From Cyanobacterium aponinum PCC 10605 (GTDB taxonomy: Bacteria; Cyanobacteriota; Cyanobacteriia; Cyanobacteriales; Cyanobacteriaceae), in contig NC_019776.1 of assembly GCF_000317675.1 (NCBI RefSeq), positions 372,001-436,000 of the forward strand: a stretch of DNA of 64,000 bases, read 5' to 3'. A model generated the notes under the pieces. That model saw only the letters and a list, made by a program, of their open reading frames with translations. It had not been told where the DNA came from and did not search any database. Below, in pieces: positions 14,234 to 43,953 of the stretch. How positions within the stretch are numbered: the first letter of the stretch is position 1; every line of letters starts with the position of its first letter. The translations under genes and the position numbers were made by a program.

Positions 14234-14645
14234 AACAAATAGTAACAGATACCTTAAGGGGGGACAATAACTCTAAAAACCTTATAGGTAGCAGGTAGCA
14301 GGTGTTAGGTGTTAGGTTTTGTCTCCACTAATATTTATCATTATCTCTATTTACTCAATGGTTCAAATAATAGGCAAAACTATTGGATTATCAACATTTT
14401 GAGATAATATGTCTGGCTATTTATTTAGTAAATACAAAATACTGTTCATGTATTTAAAACCTGCAACCTGAAACCTGAAACCTAAAACCTACCCTCACTG
14501 CAGTTTCATTGTCTCCCCGTCAGAACAGATACATGAGTTTTTAAGTATTAATTAATCAATTATTGAGAAAAAACGCTCCCCTCTACTGTGGGAGAGGGGT
14601 TGGGGGTGAGGGCAAGATGATTTTGCCCTGACTTTGAAAAAACCC

Positions 14646-14810
14646 TGCTTCTACAGTAGTCATGATAAATTATTAGAAAATAACTGTTATAAACCTTATA
14701 ATATATGGGACAAATTATAACAAAAATGAATTTTTTATAAATTAACAGTTTTTATTTCACCTGACACCTTTTCCTAAGCAATAATTGACACGACGAGAAG
14801 TAAGAGAGCC
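14646..14810. repeat. Family-1 inverted-repeat element, divergent copy F
   Basis: Inverse orientation relative to copy A. The right end ACGACGAGAAGTAAGAGAGCC is clear. The left end (CTTCTACAGTAGTCATGATAAA) is degenerate, and the AT-rich interior aligns only loosely. Confidence 0.5.
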
Positions 14811-14986
14811 ATGATTGACAAAAAAATAACAATTTATGAAAAATCTTTATTGTGCCAGAGTCTTTGATTTTTAAGTATTTTAGACTGTTGCCCTTCTCCC
14901 CTTTCAAGAGAAAACACAGAGGAATTTCCCTGTTACTCACCCTTTTGACACAACTTTTTTATCAACTCCTAAATTAAATCAAAATA

Positions 14987-17953
14987 ATGAAAATTTTTTT
15001 AGCGGAATTTGATCTTTTTCACAAAATTGGTGGAGGACAAACATTTTATCGTAATATAATTACAAAAAATCCCCATCTTCAATTTTACTATTTAACTATA
15101 GAAGAAAAAATTAATGGTCAACGTCCTGCTAATGCTCATATTTTTCCTTATTATCAAAGATATATCAAATCTGATTTGAAAAAAATTGGGAATAATTTAC
15201 CCCTAGAAAAAATAACTCGTCCTTTTTTACTCGCTTCCAATATAGCCTACTCTATTCGCCATCAAAACTTTGATATTATCGACTGTCCAGATTATGAACA
15301 ATATGGCTTATTTTTACGGGATGCTTGTGACCATCATCAGGTAAAATATCAAAAATTAGCCCTTTCTTTACATGGGGTTGTATCTCAGAGTTTGATTCAT
15401 GATTGGGTAATTGATAAAAACTATATTAACTCTCTGGAATTTGCTGAAAACTTACAATATCAAATAGTCGATATTCGCTATGGTATCAGTAAAAATTATT
15501 TAGAATTTTGGCAAGATAAATATGATTTTCTCAACTATTATTATCATCCTCTAAACTTTATTGATTTACCCCATAAAAAAATTAAAAACTATCATGATGT
15601 TACTCGAAAACCTATCTTAAATTTTATTGGTAGAAAAGAAAAAAATAAAGGAGCAGATATATTTGTTAATCTCTTAACTTTTCTTGAAAAAAAACTATAT
15701 TCTTATGGCAATATCATCGGTGCTGATAGCCCAACTCTTAACGGCAAAACAGGAGAATATTATCTACAACAAATGCTAAAATTAAGAAATAGTAACATTA
15801 ATGTTATATCATCATTAACAACTCAGCAATTAAATCAAAAATTTTCTGAGAATAGCGTTACTATTTTACCCTCTCGTTTTGATACCCTTAATTTTGTTGC
15901 CTTAGAATCGTTGTTAAATGGTTGCCCTACTATTATTAGTGATAAAGCTGGTATTTGTCGCTTTTTAAAAGATAACTTTCCTCAATTACCTTTTATCTCT
16001 ATTGATATAAATAATTTTTCTGAATCTCTTAATAAAATTAGCCAACTATTAATTAACTATAATCAATCTCGTAATAGCCTAATTAAACAAGTAAATAATA
16101 TCAGCTTTAATTTAGAACAATTAGGATTAAAATTAACAGACATTTATTATCAAGAAAATAATTATTCATCTCAAGAAAGAAAAAAAGTTAATGAATATTA
16201 TCAGCAACTTATTAGTCATTGTTACAAAAAGCAATATTGGCAAAAAGAAACTATTGTTTCTTTATCTAAACAAATCCTTAACCCTCTCAATCATCAAAAT
16301 CAAGTCTTAATTAAGACAGTCAAAAATAAGATAAGAACTCAGAAAAAACCTATTCATACCCAGCTAATAAAAAGCCTCTTTTTTTCCTCAGAATTTAAGA
16401 AAATTAACAACTTACCTGAAATATCTGCTAAAGATATTGATGATAAACTAACGCAGTTAAAAAATTTAGGTCATCCCCTCAATGCTTCTATGGAAAATAG
16501 ACAAAAATGGAAAACAGGTCATTTTGTTAATAGGGTAAAAATATGGCAAGAAATTGCTAGATTAGAAAAATTAAGGAGTAACGATTTATTATCTGCTTGT
16601 TATGAAGCTAGAATTATTCGTAGTTTAAATCAAGATAAATTTAAGCAATTACAATTCATAACTGAAACCTTTAATAACCATAATTTGAATCAAGAGGCAG
16701 AAGTTATTAATTTACTCTATCAACCTTCAAAAAATAATAGTAAATTATGCCATCAATACCTACTAAATAATTATCAAAAACATCTTAACTATCAAGAAAA
16801 ACCCTACGAATTTATCGAAGATTATCGGCAGAAAAAAAATTATCGAGTTTCGATCGCAGTTTCATTGTACAATGCGGAAAATAAACTGGGCTTCTTTTTA
16901 TCAATTCTGATCCAACAAAGTTTATTTCAGAAACAAGAAGCAGAAATAATACTCGTTGATAGTGCCTCTCCTCAAAATGAATATCAACTCTTTCAGACAC
17001 TATTACCCCAACTAAAACACCAAAATATTCCCATTGTCTATGCCCGTAGCGAAAAAAGAGAGACTATTCAAAGTGCTTGGAATAGGGCAATTTTATTATC
17101 TCAATCCCCTTATATTACCTTTTTGGGAGTTGATGAAATGATTACTTGTGATGGTTTAGAAAAATTAGCGGCAAAACTAGACTCTAATCCTGAATTAGAT
17201 TGGGTTATAGGCAATAGTCTTGTCACGGAAGTGGATTATCAAGGTAACTGGAGACAGGATGTAATGACTTATAGTCGAACTAAATTTAATCAAAACTTAG
17301 TTTACTTAGATACCTGTTACTTAACTTATGTAGGCGGGTTATACCGTAAAAATATTCATAAAAAATTTGGTTTCTACGATGAAACATTCAGAGGTGCAGG
17401 AGATACAGAATTTAAAAACAGAGTGTTACCCTATATCAAAACCGGTTTAGTCGAAGATGTTTGGGGTATATTTTGGAATTATCCAGATGAGCGCACAACC
17501 CAAAACTATTTTACTGAATTAGAAGATTTACGGGCATGGTATGTATATCGTAGTTTGGGCGGGATTGAATATGGTTTCAGAGAAAAAAATCTTGAGGATA
17601 TAGAAAACTTATTATTACTTTGCTTAAATTATCGTAAATCATTTTTAGAAACTCATAGCACAGATTTTGATTTAGCATGGCACATAATTCAGTATTTAGA
17701 ACAAAATTACCCTAAGTCAAAATATTTATCTATTAAAAAAAATATTGATATTATCCAACAAACTTTAGTCTCTTTAGAATTAGTAAATAACAAAAAAAAT
17801 ACCGATAATATTTTATTTTTATGTTTATACAGGGGCATTGAAAAATATAAAAAGCAATCTAAAACCTTTAAAAAATATTTAGATTTTGATTTTAAAGATA
17901 TTTACTTATTATTTAATGATAATCGCTACGAGCAACATTTTTATTCTTGGTAA
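14987..17953 (+). CDS. Two-domain glycosyltransferase (GT4-like plus GT2-like)
   Basis: A 988-residue fusion. Residues 1-390 resemble a GT-B (GT4) enzyme: IGGGQTFYRNII near the start, then FIGRKEKNKGADIFV and the nucleotide-sugar region ILPSRFDTLNFVALESLLNG. Residues 390-620 are a helical linker. From about 620 to 860 is a GT-A (GT2) domain with VSIAVSLYNAENKLGFFLSI, ILVDSASPQNEY, the donor-binding site YITFLGVDEM, and GAGDTEFKNRVLPY. It probably adds two different sugars to an exopolysaccharide or O-antigen-like chain, acting in the cytosol or at the membrane; no helices are evident. Substrates cannot be told. It and the 1212-residue enzyme at 19735 suggest an envelope-polysaccharide locus. 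Confidence 0.85.
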   Translation: MKIFLAEFDLFHKIGGGQTFYRNIITKNPHLQFYYLTIEEKINGQRPANAHIFPYYQRYIKSDLKKIGNNLPLEKITRPFLLASNIAYSIRHQNFDIIDCPDYEQYGLFLRDACDHHQVKYQKLALSLHGVVSQSLIHDWVIDKNYINSLEFAENLQYQIVDIRYGISKNYLEFWQDKYDFLNYYYHPLNFIDLPHKKIKNYHDVTRKPILNFIGRKEKNKGADIFVNLLTFLEKKLYSYGNIIGADSPTLNGKTGEYYLQQMLKLRNSNINVISSLTTQQLNQKFSENSVTILPSRFDTLNFVALESLLNGCPTIISDKAGICRFLKDNFPQLPFISIDINNFSESLNKISQLLINYNQSRNSLIKQVNNISFNLEQLGLKLTDIYYQENNYSSQERKKVNEYYQQLISHCYKKQYWQKETIVSLSKQILNPLNHQNQVLIKTVKNKIRTQKKPIHTQLIKSLFFSSEFKKINNLPEISAKDIDDKLTQLKNLGHPLNASMENRQKWKTGHFVNRVKIWQEIARLEKLRSNDLLSACYEARIIRSLNQDKFKQLQFITETFNNHNLNQEAEVINLLYQPSKNNSKLCHQYLLNNYQKHLNYQEKPYEFIEDYRQKKNYRVSIAVSLYNAENKLGFFLSILIQQSLFQKQEAEIILVDSASPQNEYQLFQTLLPQLKHQNIPIVYARSEKRETIQSAWNRAILLSQSPYITFLGVDEMITCDGLEKLAAKLDSNPELDWVIGNSLVTEVDYQGNWRQDVMTYSRTKFNQNLVYLDTCYLTYVGGLYRKNIHKKFGFYDETFRGAGDTEFKNRVLPYIKTGLVEDVWGIFWNYPDERTTQNYFTELEDLRAWYVYRSLGGIEYGFREKNLEDIENLLLLCLNYRKSFLETHSTDFDLAWHIIQYLEQNYPKSKYLSIKKNIDIIQQTLVSLELVNNKKNTDNILFLCLYRGIEKYKKQSKTFKKYLDFDFKDIYLLFNDNRYEQHFYSW

Positions 17954-35101: not shown

Positions 35102-35974
35102 ATGGAAGCGATTAAAATAGGCATTATTGGGGGCAGTGGTTTATATAAGATGGAAGCCCTACAAAACATCGAGGAAATAACCATTGAAACTCCCTTTGGT
35201 AAAACTTCCGATAATCTCATTACAGGCACACTAGATGGTGAAAAAGTGGTATTTTTACCCCGTCACGGTAGAAATCATCATCTTTTACCCTCAGAATTGC
35301 CTTTTCAAGCTAACATTTATGCTCTTAAACAGTTAGGAGTAGAGTATATTATTTCCGCTTCTGCGGTGGGTTCACTACAAAAAGAAATTAAACCCTTAGA
35401 TTTAGTTATACCAGATCAATTTATCGATCGCACCAAAAATCGTCCTGCCACTTTTTTCGGAGAAGGAATTGTTGCTCATGTTGCCTTTGGGCATCCCACC
35501 TGCCCACAACTAGGAAAAATTTTAGCCAAAGCTATCACTAATCTTAACTTAGAAGATATTGAATTACATGAGGGCGGAACATATATTTGTATGGAAGGTC
35601 CCGCATTTTCTACCATTGCTGAATCTAACTTGTATCGTAGTTGGGGAGCAAGTATCATTGGCATGACAAATTTAACCGAAGCAAAATTAGCCAGAGAAGC
35701 TGAAATTGCTTACGCTACCCTCGCACTCGTCACAGATTACGACTGCTGGAATCCTGAACATGATCATGTCACCGTTGAAACAGTTATTCAAAATCTACAT
35801 CAAAACGCTGTCAATGCCCAAAAAGTGATTAGGGAAACAGTGAAACTCATCGCAGAAAATCCCTTTGTTAGTAAAGCCCATTCAGCCTTAAAGGATGCTA
35901 TTATTACTCCCTTAAATAACGCCCCAGAAGCTACTAAGGAAAAGCTATCTTTATTGTTGAAAAAATATCTTTAA
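35102..35974 (+). CDS. mtnP: S-methyl-5'-thioadenosine phosphorylase
   Basis: MtnP cleaves methylthioadenosine, a by-product of polyamine synthesis, to adenine and methylthioribose 1-phosphate for methionine salvage. Signatures are [20 protein letters not shown] at the start, [19 protein letters not shown], and the base- and sugar-binding regions [14 protein letters not shown] and [20 protein letters not shown] with VTDYDCW. 290 residues is typical. The gene ends about 20 bases before a family-2 element. Confidence 0.95.
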
Positions 35975-35993
35975 CTGAAGTTTTGTACTAATC

Positions 35994-36256
35994 AACCTGG
36001 GCAGGGAGTCGGGATAAATTTACATCTATGAGTGACGGAGAAAAGGGCAAAAGGCAAGAGGCAAAGGTAAATAGTTTATAGTGAATAGTGAATAGTGAGT
36101 AGTTGATAATTATTCGTTACTCGTTACTCATTACTTTCTTCTAAAACCTGAAACCTGAAACCTGAAACCTGACACCTTATCTCCCTCTCCCCTCATCCCC
36201 CCATCTCCCCAACACCTGTAACCTGAAAACTCCTCATTCTTAAGCCAAACGGGGGT
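35994..36256. repeat. Family-2 inverted-repeat element, copy 4
   Basis: The left end is AACCTGGGCAGGGAGTCGGG and the reversed right end is AACCCCCGTTTGGCTTAAG, both degenerate relative to the family. The interior has GGCAAGA-type, AGTGAAT-type, TACTCGT-type and CCTGAAA-type heptads in that order. Confidence 0.6.
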
Positions 36257-36266
36257 TACTTATCAA

Positions 36267-36647
36267 TCATCTCCCGGGTTTACAAACATTATAATCTTCA
36301 TGGGAAACTACAGCCTCTGGAGCGACAAAACTACCATAATCCCTACAAATAAGGCGATAATTTCTCGTGACGGGAATACTGATAATGAAGCGATCGTGTC
36401 TCAGTCTTTTTCCCCTAAAATTCGTATAGCAAGTTTGATTTTGAATATGTTTTATTATCTGTCGAGCCTTTAGTACTACATTTTTAGGCAACGAACTTAA
36501 ATCGATAGGATCATTACAAAAAGTCTCCTGCCAAGCATTTTTTTCTCTTCTTTTTTGTTCCCTAAAAGAATGTTTTTGTTCACATCTATGACAAACTTTA
36601 CCGTAACCGCTATGACCACAGGCAAATTTTTTCTTTCTTCTCGACAT
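36267..36647 (-). CDS. Small protein with N-terminal zinc ribbon (DUF7682-like)
   Basis: 126 residues from the ATG at 36647, which has GGAGG seven bases upstream; a TTG five codons earlier is less likely. The N-terminal MSRRKKKFACGHSGYGKVCH continues with RCEQ, giving a CxH...CxxC zinc-knuckle pattern. The C-terminal part (SSLPKNVVLKARQIIKHIQN and IISIPVTRNYRLICRD) has the look of a RelE/ParE-like fold, in which such an arginine-rich strand and IPVTRNYRL-type ending occur. It may bind nucleic acid. No antitoxin-like partner is adjacent, so a toxin role is unproven. Confidence 0.65.
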   Translation of the reverse strand: MSRRKKKFACGHSGYGKVCHRCEQKHSFREQKRREKNAWQETFCNDPIDLSSLPKNVVLKARQIIKHIQNQTCYTNFRGKRLRHDRFIISIPVTRNYRLICRDYGSFVAPEAVVSHEDYNVCKPGR

Positions 36648-36662
36648 GACCTTGACCTCCAA

Positions 36663-37442
36663 TAATTTTCAGTATGATTAAATGTGCCGAGAATCCGTTA
36701 GTTGAACCGTTAAACTAATTATTTTCTATTTCTATCAGCAAATTTTTTTGATTTCAGACGACAAAAATTATCAAGGTAGTTGACTGATACCAATTATTCC
36801 TCTATACCGTTGATAATGAGTATTTGTTCTGCAAGATAAGTTATTTTTTATAAAGTAATTAATCATAATAAAATATACGGTATTAAATAAGATAATTAGT
36901 ATTTTATGCCCTAATAATTCTGAAAATATAATCTTATTAATTTGCAAAGGAAAAAATTTTGATAAATAATTAGTCTAAAAGCCTTTATCTAACATTGATC
37001 CCCTCACAATACTTAGGATACTCGATGGTTCTTAAAATCAACAAACTTTATTTAATTTTATTAAGATTATCTTTACAAAACTTAAAATTAATCTCAATTA
37101 ATGAGAAAAAAATTCCCCAAAACCAAATATTATTCCCGGGTAAAATTAACATAAATTAGCATAAATTAACATTACTTAATATATAATCGAACCTAGAAAA
37201 TAAAATAAGTAATAATACTTAGGATAAGCAACAAAAATTTTTTTGAAAGAGATATTAATCAAGAATAAAGGGTAAATAGAAAAGAAAATAAATCGAGAAA
37301 AAATTATTTAGAACCCCAATTTTTTTTGTTAAAATTCCCATAGCAGAGAGCAATAACATAAACTATATTGATATTACTTAAGTAATGGATTATATTTAAT
37401 GGTGACTTTAGTAAAAATTAATTTAATTTAGGTGAGGAGAAG
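36663..37442. other. AT-rich intergenic region upstream of the beta-helix pair
   Basis: 780 bases without a gene or the common repeat families, unusual in this window. ATACTTAGGATA occurs twice (about 37012 and 37216). The gene at 37443 has the ribosome site GGTGAGGAGA. Such a long leader could hold regulatory sites for the surface-protein genes, but none is recognised. Confidence 0.6.
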
Positions 37443-39161
37443 ATGAATCCAGAAGATTTTTCCGCTCAGGTAACATTAAACGTCACAACTACCGAGGATC
37501 AAAATGATGGTAGTGCCGCCAATGGTTTATCCTTAAGGGATGCTATTATTCAGGCGAATGCAGATCCACGACGAGAATACATCATTAACGTTCCTAATGG
37601 CACTTATAATTTAACTATTACTGAAGATGGTTCTCTTGATATTAGTAGTAGTATTTCTATCATTGGTGCTGGTGCGGGAAACACAATCATTTCTGCTAGT
37701 TTTTTAGGCGATCGCATATTTAATGTTTCAGGCACAGGCAACCTCAGTATTGCGAATTTCACCCTCCAAGATGCCAACGTCGGCACAGATAGCATTATTG
37801 ACGAAGAAGGAAACGCAGGTACAATAGCCGTTGATGGTGGTGCGATCAATGTTGAATCAGCAGGAAAAGCCACCTTAAATAACATGATTATCGCTCAAAA
37901 CCGCACTAACGGTAAAGGTGGAGGCATTGCCAATAACGGTATTTTAGAAGTGAATGATTCCGTTGTTTTAGTCAACCTTTCTGTGGACAGTGGCGGAGGC
38001 ATTTATAACGGTGAAGGAGGAAGGGCGATAATTAACCGCAGTACCATTGCCTTTAACTCTACCAGTAACACTATCAATGAAGAAACCCTTTTAGGAGGAG
38101 GAGGAATTTTTAATGATGCTGGTGGGGAAATGACCATTATTAATAGTACCATTTCCAATAATACCAGTTTGATTGGTGGAGGTCTTTGGGTTCAGGGAGA
38201 GCAAACCACAATTATCAATAGTACGATCGCACGTAATAGCGGTTCTACAGGTGCTGGTATCTTTTCAGGTAATCCCCAAGACGGAACTGCCACAGTGAAT
38301 ACCATCCTCCGTAATAGTATTGTTGCGGAAAATACAAACAGTGAAGACATAGATGGTAATTTTAATCTTCAAAGTTCCTATAACTTAATTGGTACATCAG
38401 CACGAGGAACTCTTGTTAATAGTCAAAATAATAATCAGGTGGGAACAGTTATTCAACCTATAGACCCCCGACTAGGTGATTTACCGGGCGAATTTACCAC
38501 CACAGACGGAGCATCAAAAATATTAGTTCACCCTATCGAAGCAGGTAGCCCAGCTATTAATGCAGGAAATAACGCCGTTACCAGAATTAGAGATTTAAGT
38601 AACTATTTCGGTAACACTGACCAAAGAGGAGAGCTTAGAATAAATGATGGTGTTGTGGATTTAGGTAGCTACGAATTTAATGAAGATTCTGGAATTAATA
38701 GCGAAACTATCAATCCCGGATTGACTAACCCCATTATTCGTTTTCAGAATACCCAAGTACAGGGAACTTATCTTTTTGTCGGAGAAGCAGAAGCTCAAAA
38801 TGTGAGAACAAATCATCCTATCTTTCGAGAGGAAGGAGAAGCATTTAGGGTTGCATTTAACCCCGAAGACGACTTAATAACCATTTATCGTTTTCAGAAT
38901 CAGAACCAACCCGGAACATATCTATATGTAGGGGAACAAGAAAGACAAAGCGTTTTACAAAACTACTCTAATACTTTTGTAGAAGAAGGAATCGCATTTT
39001 ATGTCTATGGTGCAGATGCCAATAAAGGAACAGATATTTTCCGCTTACAAAATTTAGATGTACCCGGAACTTATATTTATGTAAAAGAACAAGAAAAGAA
39101 TAATATACTGGCTAATTTTGATAATTTCCGTTTAGAAGGAGTTGCTTTTGAAGTAGCTTAA
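37443..39161 (+). CDS. CSLREA-like right-handed beta-helix protein with C-terminal DUF5648-like triple module
   Basis: 572 residues. Residues 10-40 hold the CSLREA-like start (TTEDQNDGSAANGLSLRDAI then IQANAD). Residues 50-390 are right-handed parallel beta-helix repeats rich in NNGGGI/NNT/INSTI motifs. From about residue 428 are three copies of a 45-residue module of the type RFQNTQVQGTYLFVGEAEAQ, ending EGEAF or EGVAF. There is no N-terminal signal peptide, so export would need a C-terminal signal or another system. Likely a surface or extracellular polysaccharide-binding protein. A close paralog follows 61 bases downstream; the two probably form an operon. Confidence 0.8.
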   Translation: MNPEDFSAQVTLNVTTTEDQNDGSAANGLSLRDAIIQANADPRREYIINVPNGTYNLTITEDGSLDISSSISIIGAGAGNTIISASFLGDRIFNVSGTGNLSIANFTLQDANVGTDSIIDEEGNAGTIAVDGGAINVESAGKATLNNMIIAQNRTNGKGGGIANNGILEVNDSVVLVNLSVDSGGGIYNGEGGRAIINRSTIAFNSTSNTINEETLLGGGGIFNDAGGEMTIINSTISNNTSLIGGGLWVQGEQTTIINSTIARNSGSTGAGIFSGNPQDGTATVNTILRNSIVAENTNSEDIDGNFNLQSSYNLIGTSARGTLVNSQNNNQVGTVIQPIDPRLGDLPGEFTTTDGASKILVHPIEAGSPAINAGNNAVTRIRDLSNYFGNTDQRGELRINDGVVDLGSYEFNEDSGINSETINPGLTNPIIRFQNTQVQGTYLFVGEAEAQNVRTNHPIFREEGEAFRVAFNPEDDLITIYRFQNQNQPGTYLYVGEQERQSVLQNYSNTFVEEGIAFYVYGADANKGTDIFRLQNLDVPGTYIYVKEQEKNNILANFDNFRLEGVAFEVA

Positions 39162-39222
39162 AAAAATTTTATTAAACTTATAAATTTTAATTGACATCAT
39201 CATTTAAAAAAGAGGTAAAACT

Positions 39223-41868
39223 ATGACTACATTCGATTTTTCCCGTCAAGTAGTTTTAAATGTAACCACAACTGAAGATCAAAATGACGGTAGTTCGGCT
39301 AATGGGCTGTCTCTTAGGGATGCGATTTTACAGGCCAATGCCAACCCTTCCAAAGAATACGTTATCAACGTACCTGCTGGAGTTTATAACTTAACCATTC
39401 AAAATATTTTACAACCACCTGCCATCGATGATAGCACCCCAGATTTAGCCACTTTAATTGAAAGTCGTAAAACCACAGGGGATTTAGATATTAGTGGTAG
39501 AGTCACTATTATTGGAGAAGATCCAGAAAATACGATTATTAGCGGTTTAGGGTTACAAAGAACCTTTGCAGGAGCAAACTTAGAAGGTGAGTCGCTTAGA
39601 ACTGTTACTAGAATTTTCACTGTGGGCGATCGTGTCTTTGACGTACTCTCAGGAGGATTTTTAACCCTTGAGAATGTTACAGTTCAAGATGGTTTATTGA
39701 TTGAAAATCAGAGTATTTTTGTCGATACTGATGGGGATGGTCGTATTGACACTTTAGATGCAAGAGAATCAATCCAAATCGGTAATGTGGATACTATTCC
39801 CAATGGTGCTGGGATAAATGTTTCTGCGGGTTCAAGAGTGATAATAAATAATAGCATTATTGCTAACAGTTTAAGTGAAGTCAAAGGAGGAGGAATTAAT
39901 AATGATGGAGAGTTAACTATTAATGATTCTCTCATCAAAAATAATCGTGCTGAAACTATTAATAATGCTAATTTTTTTACAGCCGAAGTCAAAACAGGGG
40001 GGGGAATTTACAATACTGGTATAATGAGAATTAATCGTAGTTCTATTATTGATAACTCTGTTGAGTCATCTCAACCTACTGATATTGAAGGAGCAGGGGC
40101 AGGTATTGCCAATGATGGGGCTGGAATTATGACCATTGTAAATACCAATATCTCCGCTAATGATGCTGGGGTTGATACTGGAGGGGGTATTCTCAACCGA
40201 GGTAGAGCCACTATCGTTAATTCTACTATTGTTAATAATATTGGACAAGTGGGAGGCGGTATTTACTCAGAAACCACAGGAGCAAGTACAGTTATCACGA
40301 ACACCATTGTTGCCAATAACCAAGTACCCTTAGAACAAAGAGAAGAAATTACCTCTGATTTTCCCGTTTTTAACTTAACCACAACTCCTCTCACTAATTT
40401 TGCAGATGAATTTGTTTGGGATATTATTGACGGTACAAATCGCTTAATTCAACCGCCTCCAGATGTTACTCCTTTTCGTGACTCTTATTACAACATTCGA
40501 GTATTGTATCGCAATGAAGATCCCTTTTCTGGTTATCCCCCAGAAGGTTTGGACTTAACTGGGATCGTTGGTTTAGATAACTTAATCTTTAATAGTGATG
40601 CTGACATCGAATTTGTTTTTAACCGCTACTCTCCATCCAATCCCCTTATCAATGATCCTGATAACTTCTTTAGTGAAGCTAATGGTTTTTTAGGAGAAGA
40701 TAATAATTTAATTAGTAATCCAAATCAGAATTTTCAATTTGCCTATGATGATGGTACAGGTAACACCATCTTTTTAAACACCGATTTTGAATTTGATGAA
40801 GAAGGGAAATTAATTTTAGTCTTATCAGATCCTAATATTAGTAATAACTTTCAAGAAAATATCGATATATTTGTTGCTGATACCCAAGAAGTTTTTACCT
40901 TTGATACTTTTAACAATACGATTACCTTAAATGATGAAAATAAAAGATCCGCTAGTTTTGTCAGAGATCAAAATAATCAAGTCAGAAATTTTGATACTAT
41001 TGTCAGCTTTCAAAATCGTAAAATTGCTGAGATAATCAAAGAAATACCGAATCCGCCTCTACCAACTGATATTGATGGTTTTTTTGGAAGGAGTAGTGCT
41101 TTCAACCTTATTGGCAGTAGTAGTGCTAATGGTATTGTGGACGGAGTTAATAATAATATTGTGGGAAGTACAACCGATCCTTTAGATCCATTATTAGAAC
41201 CGATCGCAACTCTTGGAGGAGATATTATTGCTTATCAGCCCATCGATGATAGCCCTGCGATTAATGCAGGAAATAACTTAATTGTCGAGTTACAACAATT
41301 CTTTTCTGCTAATCCAGTAGATCAATTTGGTAATCCTCGTATTAATAATGGAACAGTCGATATAGGTAGTGTGGAATCTGGCTATATTGATACTCAGGGA
41401 GTGTTAACAGAAATAGACTCTTTGCTTAACACTCCTATTTTTCGCTTTCAAAATCAGGATGTTGCTGGAACTTATCTTTATGCTCAAGAACAAGAAGCAC
41501 AACAGATTCGATCGCGCTATCCTAATTTTATAGAAGAAGGACAAGCCTTTAAAGTAGCAGATCAACAAGCGGATGGTTTGATTCGCATTAATCGTTTTCA
41601 AAATACAGACATACCCGGGACTTATTTATTTGCCACGGAAGCAGAAAGTGTGTCTATTCGTCAAAATCATCAAAACTTTAAAGAAGAAGGAGTGGCTTTT
41701 TACGTTTACGGTGCAGATGCAGATATTGGTGAGGATGTTTATCGTTTTCAAAGTTTGAAGCTACCCGGGACTTATTTATTTGCCTTAGAAGGAGAGAAAG
41801 ATAGCATTCTAGCTAACTACTCTAGTGATTTTCGTTTGGAAGGAGTCGCTTTTGAGGTAGTTGTTTAA
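39223..41868 (+). CDS. CSLREA-like beta-helix protein, longer paralog with the same triple module
   Basis: 881 residues. The first 40 residues are almost the same as the upstream gene (LNVTTTEDQNDGSSANGLSL, RDAILQANAN). The beta-helix runs to about residue 390 (NNDGELTINDSLIKNN, GGGIYNTG), followed by an insert of about 300 residues with acidic, FDTFNN-type beta-strand sequence absent from its partner, then SPAINAGNNL, then three C-terminal modules (RFQNQDVAGTYLYAQEQEAQ, RFQNTDIPGTYLFATEAES, RFQSLKLPGTYLFALEGEKD). It ends EGVAFEVVV. It is probably the product of duplication of the upstream gene with later insertion or loss. A plausible ribosome site (AGAGGTAAA) precedes the ATG. Confidence 0.8.
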   Translation: MTTFDFSRQVVLNVTTTEDQNDGSSANGLSLRDAILQANANPSKEYVINVPAGVYNLTIQNILQPPAIDDSTPDLATLIESRKTTGDLDISGRVTIIGEDPENTIISGLGLQRTFAGANLEGESLRTVTRIFTVGDRVFDVLSGGFLTLENVTVQDGLLIENQSIFVDTDGDGRIDTLDARESIQIGNVDTIPNGAGINVSAGSRVIINNSIIANSLSEVKGGGINNDGELTINDSLIKNNRAETINNANFFTAEVKTGGGIYNTGIMRINRSSIIDNSVESSQPTDIEGAGAGIANDGAGIMTIVNTNISANDAGVDTGGGILNRGRATIVNSTIVNNIGQVGGGIYSETTGASTVITNTIVANNQVPLEQREEITSDFPVFNLTTTPLTNFADEFVWDIIDGTNRLIQPPPDVTPFRDSYYNIRVLYRNEDPFSGYPPEGLDLTGIVGLDNLIFNSDADIEFVFNRYSPSNPLINDPDNFFSEANGFLGEDNNLISNPNQNFQFAYDDGTGNTIFLNTDFEFDEEGKLILVLSDPNISNNFQENIDIFVADTQEVFTFDTFNNTITLNDENKRSASFVRDQNNQVRNFDTIVSFQNRKIAEIIKEIPNPPLPTDIDGFFGRSSAFNLIGSSSANGIVDGVNNNIVGSTTDPLDPLLEPIATLGGDIIAYQPIDDSPAINAGNNLIVELQQFFSANPVDQFGNPRINNGTVDIGSVESGYIDTQGVLTEIDSLLNTPIFRFQNQDVAGTYLYAQEQEAQQIRSRYPNFIEEGQAFKVADQQADGLIRINRFQNTDIPGTYLFATEAESVSIRQNHQNFKEEGVAFYVYGADADIGEDVYRFQSLKLPGTYLFALEGEKDSILANYSSDFRLEGVAFEVVV

Positions 41869-41940
41869 AAAAAATTGGGAGTTAGAAATTAGGAATAAAA
41901 AAACTCTATTAAGCTCATAAGTTAAAATAAATAAACCAAG

Positions 41941-41973
41941 ATTCTCCACGTCTTTAAGCGGGAGAGTGTCAAC
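41941..41973. mobile_element. Possible IS200/IS605-type end remnant
   Basis: ATTCTCCACGTCTTTAAGCG followed by GGAGAGTGTCAAC. The imperfect hairpin CTCCACG...GCGGGAG with GAGAGTGTCAAC after it resembles the conserved end of IS200/IS605-type elements. It lies 20 bases before the next gene. No transposase is present. Confidence 0.4.
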
Positions 41974-41992
41974 CTTCCACAATGGATAAGTC

Positions 41993-42964
41993 ATGAAATC
42001 TCAATCGGAATTACAAACAAAACCTTGGTGGAATCGTCCTTTATTCGGTGGAGTTAGTTTGATAGAAAGGGCTTTAGGGGCTTTAAATCGTCAAGAAATA
42101 CCCGAATTAGCATTATCGCTACATGATACGGAATTAGAGGAATTGGAAAAAATTTTTCCAACAATGAAAATGCTCGATCATGAGCAATATACGGATGAGT
42201 TTTTGCTTTATATAAGAATTAGAAATAAAGTAGAAAATAATCTGGAAGAATATAAGGGTTTACAGACCTTTATTAAAATTTTTATCTTTACTACTAAGCA
42301 TATTAATTATTTTCGTACCATCAGAAGAATAGAGCTAGATTTTCAGGGTAAAACTCAAATAGAATTATATAATTTTATAGAGGAACAATTAAACTTAACT
42401 TCTGACCCTAATTTATTTAATCAAATAGTCATAGAAGAAATTGATAAACTCATAAATATTATTCGTAATGAACCAACCAAAGAGGCTTTATTATCTTATA
42501 AAAATGCGATCGATGCTATTAGTAAAGATGAGATAGGTTTAAATTTATTAATTTTGTTTAAAAAATATAATCTAATTGATTATTCAATTTTTAATGTTAT
42601 CAATGCAATCTTAAAAAAGTTAAAGAAACAGAATTTAGAAACTTTAAAGGCTTTAGTATTAGTAGTGAAAGTTAACTATGATGAGTTAGAAAAAATAGGT
42701 CGTTTAGTGGGTATTCCCAACAATGAAGATAAGGTTATTATTTATGCAAAAATCCTTCAGTATATAGCACTCTCTTATCGTTATGAAAATTTACTTTATC
42801 GTTTTAATCAACTTTTAGAAGTTGTCAAAAATTGGAATAAGCAATATCAAACTTTGGCAGAAATTAGACAGGAATATCCTAGCCATAAATATAAAATACC
42901 AGAGTCTTTTCTTAAAGCTATTCCGGGAGAATATATATATAACAAGTATCAAGAATTTATCTAG
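41993..42964 (+). CDS. Helical protein of unknown function
   Basis: 323 residues with no family I recognise. It begins MKSQSELQTKPWWNRPLFGG, then LGALNRQEIPELALSLHDTE, and is almost entirely predicted alpha-helical and charged, with several KLKK/EEID-rich stretches and no membrane segment. It might be a scaffold or effector. It follows the beta-helix pair by 124 bases on the same strand, and a possible IS200-type end lies in between. A repeat begins directly after its TAG stop. Confidence 0.6.
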   Translation: MKSQSELQTKPWWNRPLFGGVSLIERALGALNRQEIPELALSLHDTELEELEKIFPTMKMLDHEQYTDEFLLYIRIRNKVENNLEEYKGLQTFIKIFIFTTKHINYFRTIRRIELDFQGKTQIELYNFIEEQLNLTSDPNLFNQIVIEEIDKLINIIRNEPTKEALLSYKNAIDAISKDEIGLNLLILFKKYNLIDYSIFNVINAILKKLKKQNLETLKALVLVVKVNYDELEKIGRLVGIPNNEDKVIIYAKILQYIALSYRYENLLYRFNQLLEVVKNWNKQYQTLAEIRQEYPSHKYKIPESFLKAIPGEYIYNKYQEFI

Positions 42965-43050
42965 TTTGGATAAGGGCAGGTTTGGAGGAATAATGAGTAA
43001 GGAGTAATGAGTTTTTAATTATTCACTATTCACTATTCATTATTCACTAT
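42965..43050. repeat. Family-2 fragment with heptad tail
   Basis: TTTGGATAAGGGCAGGTTTG is an inner part of a family-2 end, followed by GAGTAAT/GAGTAAG and ATTCACT heptads. The ATTCACT run overlaps the 3' end of the convergent flippase-like gene. Confidence 0.55.
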
Positions 43051-43953
43051 TACTGAGTATAGTAACCAAGCAAGATAAGCGGTAAAGGTTTCAGCAATAA
43101 TACTACTGAAGCGAAATAAAGCAACAACAATGATTATTTTATCACGGGGAAAGATAGCTGGATCTAAAGATGCGATCGCAACTGCTTCAAAAATACCTAA
43201 ACCGCCGGGGGCGCCGGGTACAATTAAACCAATCAACCATGCAAAACTAAAAGCAGTTAATACTTGGGGAATTAAGATAATATTTAAGTCAATAAAAGGC
43301 ATCATTAAAGCCATAAAAGCACTACCTCTTAAAAGCAAAAAAATTAGCTCTCCTATTAAAGGTAAAAAAGGATATTTATTTAATTTAATATTTGTTTCTA
43401 CTTTTCCTTTATTTATTACTAATTTCTTTAAAACTGGGTTGATAAATTTAGGATGAATTACAATTAAAATTATTAATATAAAAAATAATAATAGAGAAAA
43501 AATAAGAGGAGAAAAATTTACTTCTAAAATTCCTAAACTAACGCTAAATATAGTAATTAATAAAGATGCGATCGCCATTAGCAAAGGTTCAAGAACCACA
43601 GGAAAAGTTCCCAAGGCAATGCTATCACCGTGATTTTGAATTGCTTTTACCCTGCCCACAAAATGCCATATATTACCCGGAATATACTTACTGATATTAG
43701 TAATTAAGTAAATTTTTACAGCAGAAAACCCACCTAATTTACAGTTAAATAAAGTTAAAATCCAAGTCCATACCCAAGCAGAAAAAATATGAGCAAAACT
43801 ATTTAATATTAAACTAATAAAAATAAGTAAAAAAAGATATTTATTAAATTCTATACTTGTAATGCTACGCCAATTATTAACAATAGTAGTAGCTAAAAAA
43901 AATAGAGTGATTCCAAAAATAAAGTAGCGTAAAAATTGCTTTAATAACTTCAT
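43033..43953 (-). CDS. Lysylphosphatidylglycerol synthase/flippase-type membrane protein (UPF0104)
   Basis: About 306 residues with around eight membrane helices, matching the UPF0104/AglD-like family: FIFGITLFFLATTIVNNW at the start, SAWVWTWILTLFNCKLGG, YIPGNIWHFVGRVKAIQN, and the conserved segment AFSFAWLIGLIVPGAPGGLG followed by IFEAVAIASL. Relatives act in lipid or polysaccharide-precursor transfer. The ATG at 43953 is the native start; an upstream in-frame ATG at 43980, adding nine residues (MKIYPELRL), is supplied by the repeat element. The last six residues (VIVNNE) and stop are encoded by ATTCACT heptads, so the C-terminus is repeat-derived. Confidence 0.85.
   Translation of the reverse strand: MKLLKQFLRYFIFGITLFFLATTIVNNWRSITSIEFNKYLFLLIFISLILNSFAHIFSAWVWTWILTLFNCKLGGFSAVKIYLITNISKYIPGNIWHFVGRVKAIQNHGDSIALGTFPVVLEPLLMAIASLLITIFSVSLGILEVNFSPLIFSLLLFFILIILIVIHPKFINPVLKKLVINKGKVETNIKLNKYPFLPLIGELIFLLLRGSAFMALMMPFIDLNIILIPQVLTAFSFAWLIGLIVPGAPGGLGIFEAVAIASLDPAIFPRDKIIIVVALFRFSSIIAETFTAYLAWLLYSVIVNNE

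Follow-up and report, generated by a model that had tools for sequence, protein, structure and literature searches.

The 64,000-nucleotide stretch of the Cyanobacterium aponinum PCC 10605 genome analyzed here (NC_019776.1, positions 372,001 to 436,000, forward strand; hereafter the window) encodes two tandem paralogous proteins that end in the same triple module of the DUF5648 family, and this module, used genome-wide, is the unit of interest rather than the pair. Because the module ends many different, probably secreted proteins, it is interpreted as a shared C-terminal export or attachment tag, not as a component of a local system. Our confidence is evenly divided on the specific proposal, drawn from sequence comparison, that the triple module serves as a mobile tag at the C-terminus, directing Sec-independent export most likely via an HlyB-like type I secretion system (T1SS) with an inactive C39-like domain.

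Results and Discussion

Triple module of the two window paralogs

The first paralog (P0001, 37443..39161, forward strand, 572 aa) consists of a beta-helix-type body, a choice-of-anchor Q match and the C-terminal triple module, and ends in FEVA followed by the stop codon; the second paralog (P0002, 39223..41868, forward strand, 881 aa), separated from the first by a gap of 61 bases, has the same layout and ends in FEVVV before the stop. BLASTP supports the relationship between the two proteins, giving 40% for their N-terminal part and 50% for the last 276 residues. In the first paralog, the module spans residues 429-572 (38727..39158, forward strand; assigned from PF18885, repeats and a structure model), with DNA repeat units starting at 38732, 38882 and 39035; in the second, it spans residues 737-881 (41431..41865, forward strand; assigned from PF18885 and repeats), with units starting at 41436, 41586 and 41736. 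The repeats are visible in the DNA of both genes at a spacing of 150/153 bases, and DUF5648 (PF18885) is matched at E 2.9e-14 and 2.9e-17 (53.9 and 63.6 bits, with a curated cut-off of 25), so that the match is not due to chance, and both the three copies and the likeness to DUF5648 in the original prediction hold, as do the tandem paralogs themselves. N-terminal to the module, both proteins match choice-of-anchor Q (NF041518; 39.2 and 39.4 bits, cut-off 25). The suggested CSLREA-like start found no such backing, the N-terminal domain TIGR04214 scoring below the cut-off in both proteins (15.8 and 16.2 bits versus 25). The second paralog is indeed longer, by 309 residues, but the single insert of 300 residues proposed for it reduces to a largest insert of about 250 (residues 367-615; 40321..41067, forward strand; BLASTP alignment and model), with smaller insertions making up the remainder. 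The whole-protein model of the second paralog is weak (pLDDT 66.4, pTM 0.57); in it, the body is a beta-helix-like series of short strands, many with pLDDT of about 90, and the insert is mostly of low confidence (residues 374-605 mostly below pLDDT 50).

The module comprises three units of 45-50 residues each. Its structure prediction, which had been proposed as a check, was performed for the first paralog with a model built from 69 modules (mean pLDDT 96.4, pTM 0.89), and the predicted fold is strand-strand-helix-strand, repeated three times. DUF5648 has been described, in GH70 enzymes and BSAP toxins, as a (beta3-alpha)3 domain (PMC12853789, PMC11299179). No solved relative of the module was found by sequence (best E 0.88), and a Foldseek comparison with the PDB gave none at E 0.001 or better. 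The sole VIA-align row for the window module (38727-39158) is the C-terminal part (353-482) of the aegerolysin-L pore 9uj0_A, with Z 8.2, rmsd 4.2 and 122 aligned residues, which the tool's own note rates as borderline.

Spread of the module and its chain end

A module model was seeded with the modules of both window proteins and run iteratively across 68 regions fetched from five genomes. It yielded 77 frames, of which two are fragments of a single broken gene and 75 have an end module (the window genome contributing 16, G001, which belongs to the same genus, 23, G014 16, G008 11 and G005 9). Each of the 75 frames carries one triple module; in four proteins, two from G000 and two from G001, an insertion separates one unit from the rest. 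Four frames (L083, L087, L089 and L103) have no in-frame ATG and are possibly truncated. The 67 frames in which a full module is preceded by more than 100 residues represent 17 body families. Within the taxonomic family of the window genome, the module is present in 8 of 15 genomes, the tags of G007, G010 and G012 and one further G005 tag being counted from search rows only. Seven of 242 genomes in a class-wide sample match, the window genome included, several of them only weakly. A pattern scan of species genomes located the module also in Geminocystis, Xenococcus, Hyella, Microcystis aeruginosa and Synechocystis salina, with 21 matches in Xenococcus PCC 7305 and 20 in Hyella patelloides. At L054 (G000, C1:1792000-1796500), a broken tag gene is split between two separate frames.

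The stop codon lies 1-4 residues past the end of the model in 74 of the 75 frames and 7 past it in the remaining one; 57 modules of named genomes have the stop 3-7 residues after AF. Since nothing follows the module, a C-terminal signal, if there is any, must lie inside it. The end of the third unit is clade-specific: AF, usually E, V or A, one or two more residues and the stop. The residue after AF in unit 3 is E in 57 of 67 and 39 of 53 modules, the corresponding residue of unit 2 is Y (65 of 67 and 52 of 53), and in all 12 remote DUF5648 modules counted, the last AF-type site is occupied by Y or W. The ends of T1SS lipases and proteases have been reported to consist of an acidic residue followed by hydrophobic ones, and added residues impair export (PMC2642768). 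The likeness of the unit-3 end motif to a C-terminal T1SS signal is only suggestive.

Common features of the tagged proteins

Carrier statistics were calculated for 70 of the 75 frames, the four frames lacking an in-frame ATG and L094 (diverged module, score below 150) being set aside, and compared with 66 non-tag open frames of at least 300 residues from the same loci, which may include spurious ones. N-terminal signals were judged by hydrophobicity only (KD15 of at least 1.8 in the first 50 residues). A hydrophobic N-terminus is found in none of the 70 carriers, including the two window proteins, for which the absence of an N-terminal signal had been correctly predicted, versus 16 of 66 controls, and 62 of 70 carriers are cysteine-free, versus 8 of 66 controls. 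The pI of the carriers is at most 4.56, the control median being 5.82 (Biopython values, with a floor of 4.05, so that a median of 4.05 means 'at or below'). The carriers of the named genomes behave similarly (0/50 with a hydrophobic N-terminus, 45/50 cysteine-free); for remote DUF5648 proteins, the respective counts are 4/13 and 7/13.

In a domain scan of 53 carriers (19 proteins of at least 1600 residues and three short frames were left out), DUF5648 was matched at E 0.001 in 50, and the partner domains included choice-of-anchor Q (14), RTX (8), cyclophilin (7), CAP (4) and GDSL (2), along with cadherin and Calx-beta. Two Xenococcus proteins, L209 and L213, start sulfotransferase-like, as read from their sequences. 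In published reports, 90% of RTX proteins have a pI of 3.2-4.9, RTX S-layer proteins and lipases are without cysteine (PMC3034196), and one T1SS exports only negatively charged proteins (PMC6302416). The traits of the carriers, being signal-less, cysteine-poor and acidic, fit T1SS cargo. It is very improbable that, instead, many tagged proteins are intracellular and the module is an internal binding or assembly domain: this would agree with the lack of signal peptides and with enzyme-like bodies such as cyclophilin and the sulfotransferase-like L209 and L213, but not with the near absence of cysteine, the very low pI and the presence of RTX, cadherin, Calx-beta, CAP and choice-of-anchor bodies.

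Relatives of the tagged bodies with other C-terminal ends were compared for three of seven CAP loci, one of two GDSL loci and the beta-helix bodies, the names of the alternative ends being a reading of the sequence and not a tool result. CAP bodies related to those of the carriers end in NPDV-type repeats (L246 in G026, 44% identity), in a hydrophobic stretch with a basic tail (L250 in G026, 39%) or in RTX-like repeats (L248 in G015, a weak match with E 2.7e-6); the GDSL body relative L253 of G011 (29%, E 1.9e-7) has a signal peptide and a PEP-CTERM-like tail; and the beta-helix relatives L010, L012 and L013 (G003, G011 and G009) end in FFSFF and one or two residues. L250 1261-2325 encodes a CAP-like protein without an N-terminal signal. 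The best cross-genus body and the best cross-genus module agree in 10 of 53 cases, and 14 more bodies have no cross-genus relative; module scores being close together, these histories give only a hint that the module may be exchanged between bodies.

Comparison with known systems

Compared with the DUF5648 domains of GH70 enzymes and BSAP toxins, the module is alike in sequence family and three-unit layout, and differs in ending many signal-less, cysteine-poor and acidic bodies per genome and in the clade-specific E at the end of unit 3. Cargo of T1SS, including RTX proteins, shares with the carriers the absence of an N-terminal signal, acidity, few cysteines and a free end that is often acidic and then hydrophobic, but has an RTX tail with a short signal in place of the folded 144-residue module. 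The C-terminal domain of the type IX secretion system (T9SS) and PEP-CTERM are sorting tags whose cargo need Sec signal peptides. As in these systems, one C-terminal module is common to unrelated proteins across a genome, whereas no hydrophobic N-terminus accompanies it here; neither window protein matches T9SS or PEP-CTERM families at E 1.

Candidate exporter and proposed mechanism

A search for HlyB, in which at most 40 or 48 candidates were scored per genome, gave one match above the cut-off in each of 13 of the 15 family genomes, the window genome and tag-less ones included, and none above it in G002 (67% complete) and G008. The HlyB-like gene of the window genome is located at G000 C1:3063944-3066037. 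Nine of the ten genomes behind the named loci also have a match above the cut-off, the tenth scoring 718.2 versus 725.55. As tag-less relatives have HlyB too, its presence was rejected as an uninformative marker of the tag. The HlyD model TIGR01843 exceeded its cut-off in 1 of 15 genomes and was not used for counts. Seven of the eight tag-bearing family genomes, and both tag-less genomes searched, have an HlyB-like frame, about 1015 aa long, that matches C39 weakly. The catalytic cysteine of C39, which we take to be the C of DCG, is present in the true C39 exporter of G011 and is replaced by I or V in all eight aligned HlyB-like proteins, so the C39-like domain of the latter appears to be inactive. 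C39-like domains go with large cargo bearing C-terminal signals, according to a review (PMC8277102).

In the proposed mechanism, the HlyB-like exporter would read the free C-terminus of the module, the chain would cross unfolded with the tag leading, and the tag would fold outside the cell. On weaker grounds, the tag, once folded, might then tether the body to glycans of the surface or matrix, a role that has been suggested for DUF5648 domains elsewhere. Under this model, both window proteins would be beta-helix proteins exported to the surface or matrix.

Several observations weigh against this proposal. With regard to the cargo, a hydrophobic stretch precedes the first ATG in the open frames of L085 and L105, so their signal-less verdict could change with another start; L209 and L213, with 7 cysteines, are exceptions to the cysteine-poor rule; and neither P0001 nor P0002 matches RTX repeats (PF00353), which are found in 8 of the 53 other scanned carriers. 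Classical T1SS signals are shorter and less stably folded than the tag, and LipB was reported not to require the acidic residue of its end motif (PMC2642768). Furthermore, remote DUF5648 domains are mostly terminal too (11/13 proteins), some of them in proteins with signal peptides, so position alone proves little, and the end position was dropped as the main argument. As to the exporter, it does not track the tag, being encoded in tag-less relatives as well; G008 has 11 tag genes yet no intact HlyB-like gene, a deletion having left adjacent N- and C-terminal pieces with a stop after the first (L153, about 14430-15400); and the exporter is unlinked to tag genes, although linkage is usual for T1SS and not required. 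None of the eight neighbor clusters present in at least three of the 68 regions is exporter-like, as judged from the first 120 residues without a family search, and the only adjacency seen is an HlyD-like ORF beside one tag gene in G005.

The failure of the exporter to track the tag among relatives and the state of G008 would also suit a distinctly unlikely variant, in which the tag would direct export through some machine that is not an HlyB-like T1SS. Against this, the G008 deletion could have arisen recently or stem from faulty assembly, cargo that is acidic and cysteine-free fits T1SS, and no alternative candidate was found, without whole-genome profiling. We also consider it rather unlikely that the module is solely a glycan-binding or surface-attachment domain that acts after an export set by other parts of the proteins. 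According to PMC12853789 and PMC11299179, DUF5648 forms the end of BSAP toxins, relatives of which target O-antigen glycans, and is also present in GH70 enzymes. The remote domains are mostly terminal and some are accompanied by signal peptides, so in those proteins the domain is not an export signal. Such an exclusive glycan role is at odds with the lack of an N-terminal signal in carriers that have nothing after the module, and with the third unit having gained its own end in this clade.

Genomic neighborhood of the window pair

The original prediction placed the pair in a surface or extracellular system together with the helical gene located downstream of the second paralog (41993-42964) and behind a leader of 780 bases between the upstream ORF and the first paralog (36663-37442); leader and helical gene are both there. 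The co-occurrence check proposed for this trio was run, and the three-gene system was rejected by gene positions: the pair is conserved in G001, G014 and G010, while in G001 the helical gene has its best relative at 735 kb, with the pair at 3606 kb, and in G014 and G010 at another place or contig than the pair. What stands of the proposed system is the set of traits of exported proteins. The left neighbor gene is kept with the pair in G001 and G014, and a third tandem paralog is found in G014 and G010. As read by eye, the ORFs that follow the pair encode a membrane-bound hydrolase-like protein and an FeoB-like GTPase in G001, and the third paralog and a Rieske-type protein in G014. The helical protein has five matches in the window genome, one of them with internal stops, and relatives in 19 of 40 genomes.

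An RNA element in the leader was considered and rejected, as Rfam gave no match at gathering thresholds within 35900-43100. A promoter-like site, TTGATA-17-TATATT (37368..37396, forward strand), contains in its spacer the perfect 14-base palindrome ATTACTTAAGTAAT (37373-37386), and site and palindrome are conserved upstream of the orthologs in G001, G014 and Geminocystis sp. GBBB08, other genera included. Across the whole region, promoter-like matches do not stand out from shuffled sequences (35 versus 28.4, sd 5.4). A shared regulon was considered and rejected, the palindrome lying upstream of 3 of 70 tag genes (0.22 expected), all of which are orthologs of the first paralog. The word GAACTCAGG precedes six tag genes (in G001, G014, G008 and G005) versus about 0.8 expected, and is possibly a dispersed repeat.

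Implications

The occurrence of DUF5648 in toxins, endolysins and GH70 enzymes, and its glycan role, are already in print, while no description of DUF5648 as a lineage-wide tag on signal-less proteins was found in the literature searched, which did not cover most subscription journals. A role as a glycan anchor, in addition to export, is plausible because DUF5648 has been linked to glycan-targeting proteins. Combining the two roles leads to a possible, if doubtful, scenario, in which a threefold domain of the glycan-binding type has been turned into a genome-wide export ticket and glycan anchor that replaces RTX tails and Sec signals: the exporter would read the acidic terminus that unit 3 has gained in this clade, and the same folded module would keep the cargo on the cell's own glycans.

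If the export tag is real, it would reveal a hidden secretome of Geminocystis-type and Xenococcus/Hyella cyanobacteria, defined by sequence alone and comprising many proteins per genome, of up to about 3900 residues, that are missed by signal-peptide tools. It would also give DUF5648 a second role and provide a testable export tag for cyanobacteria.

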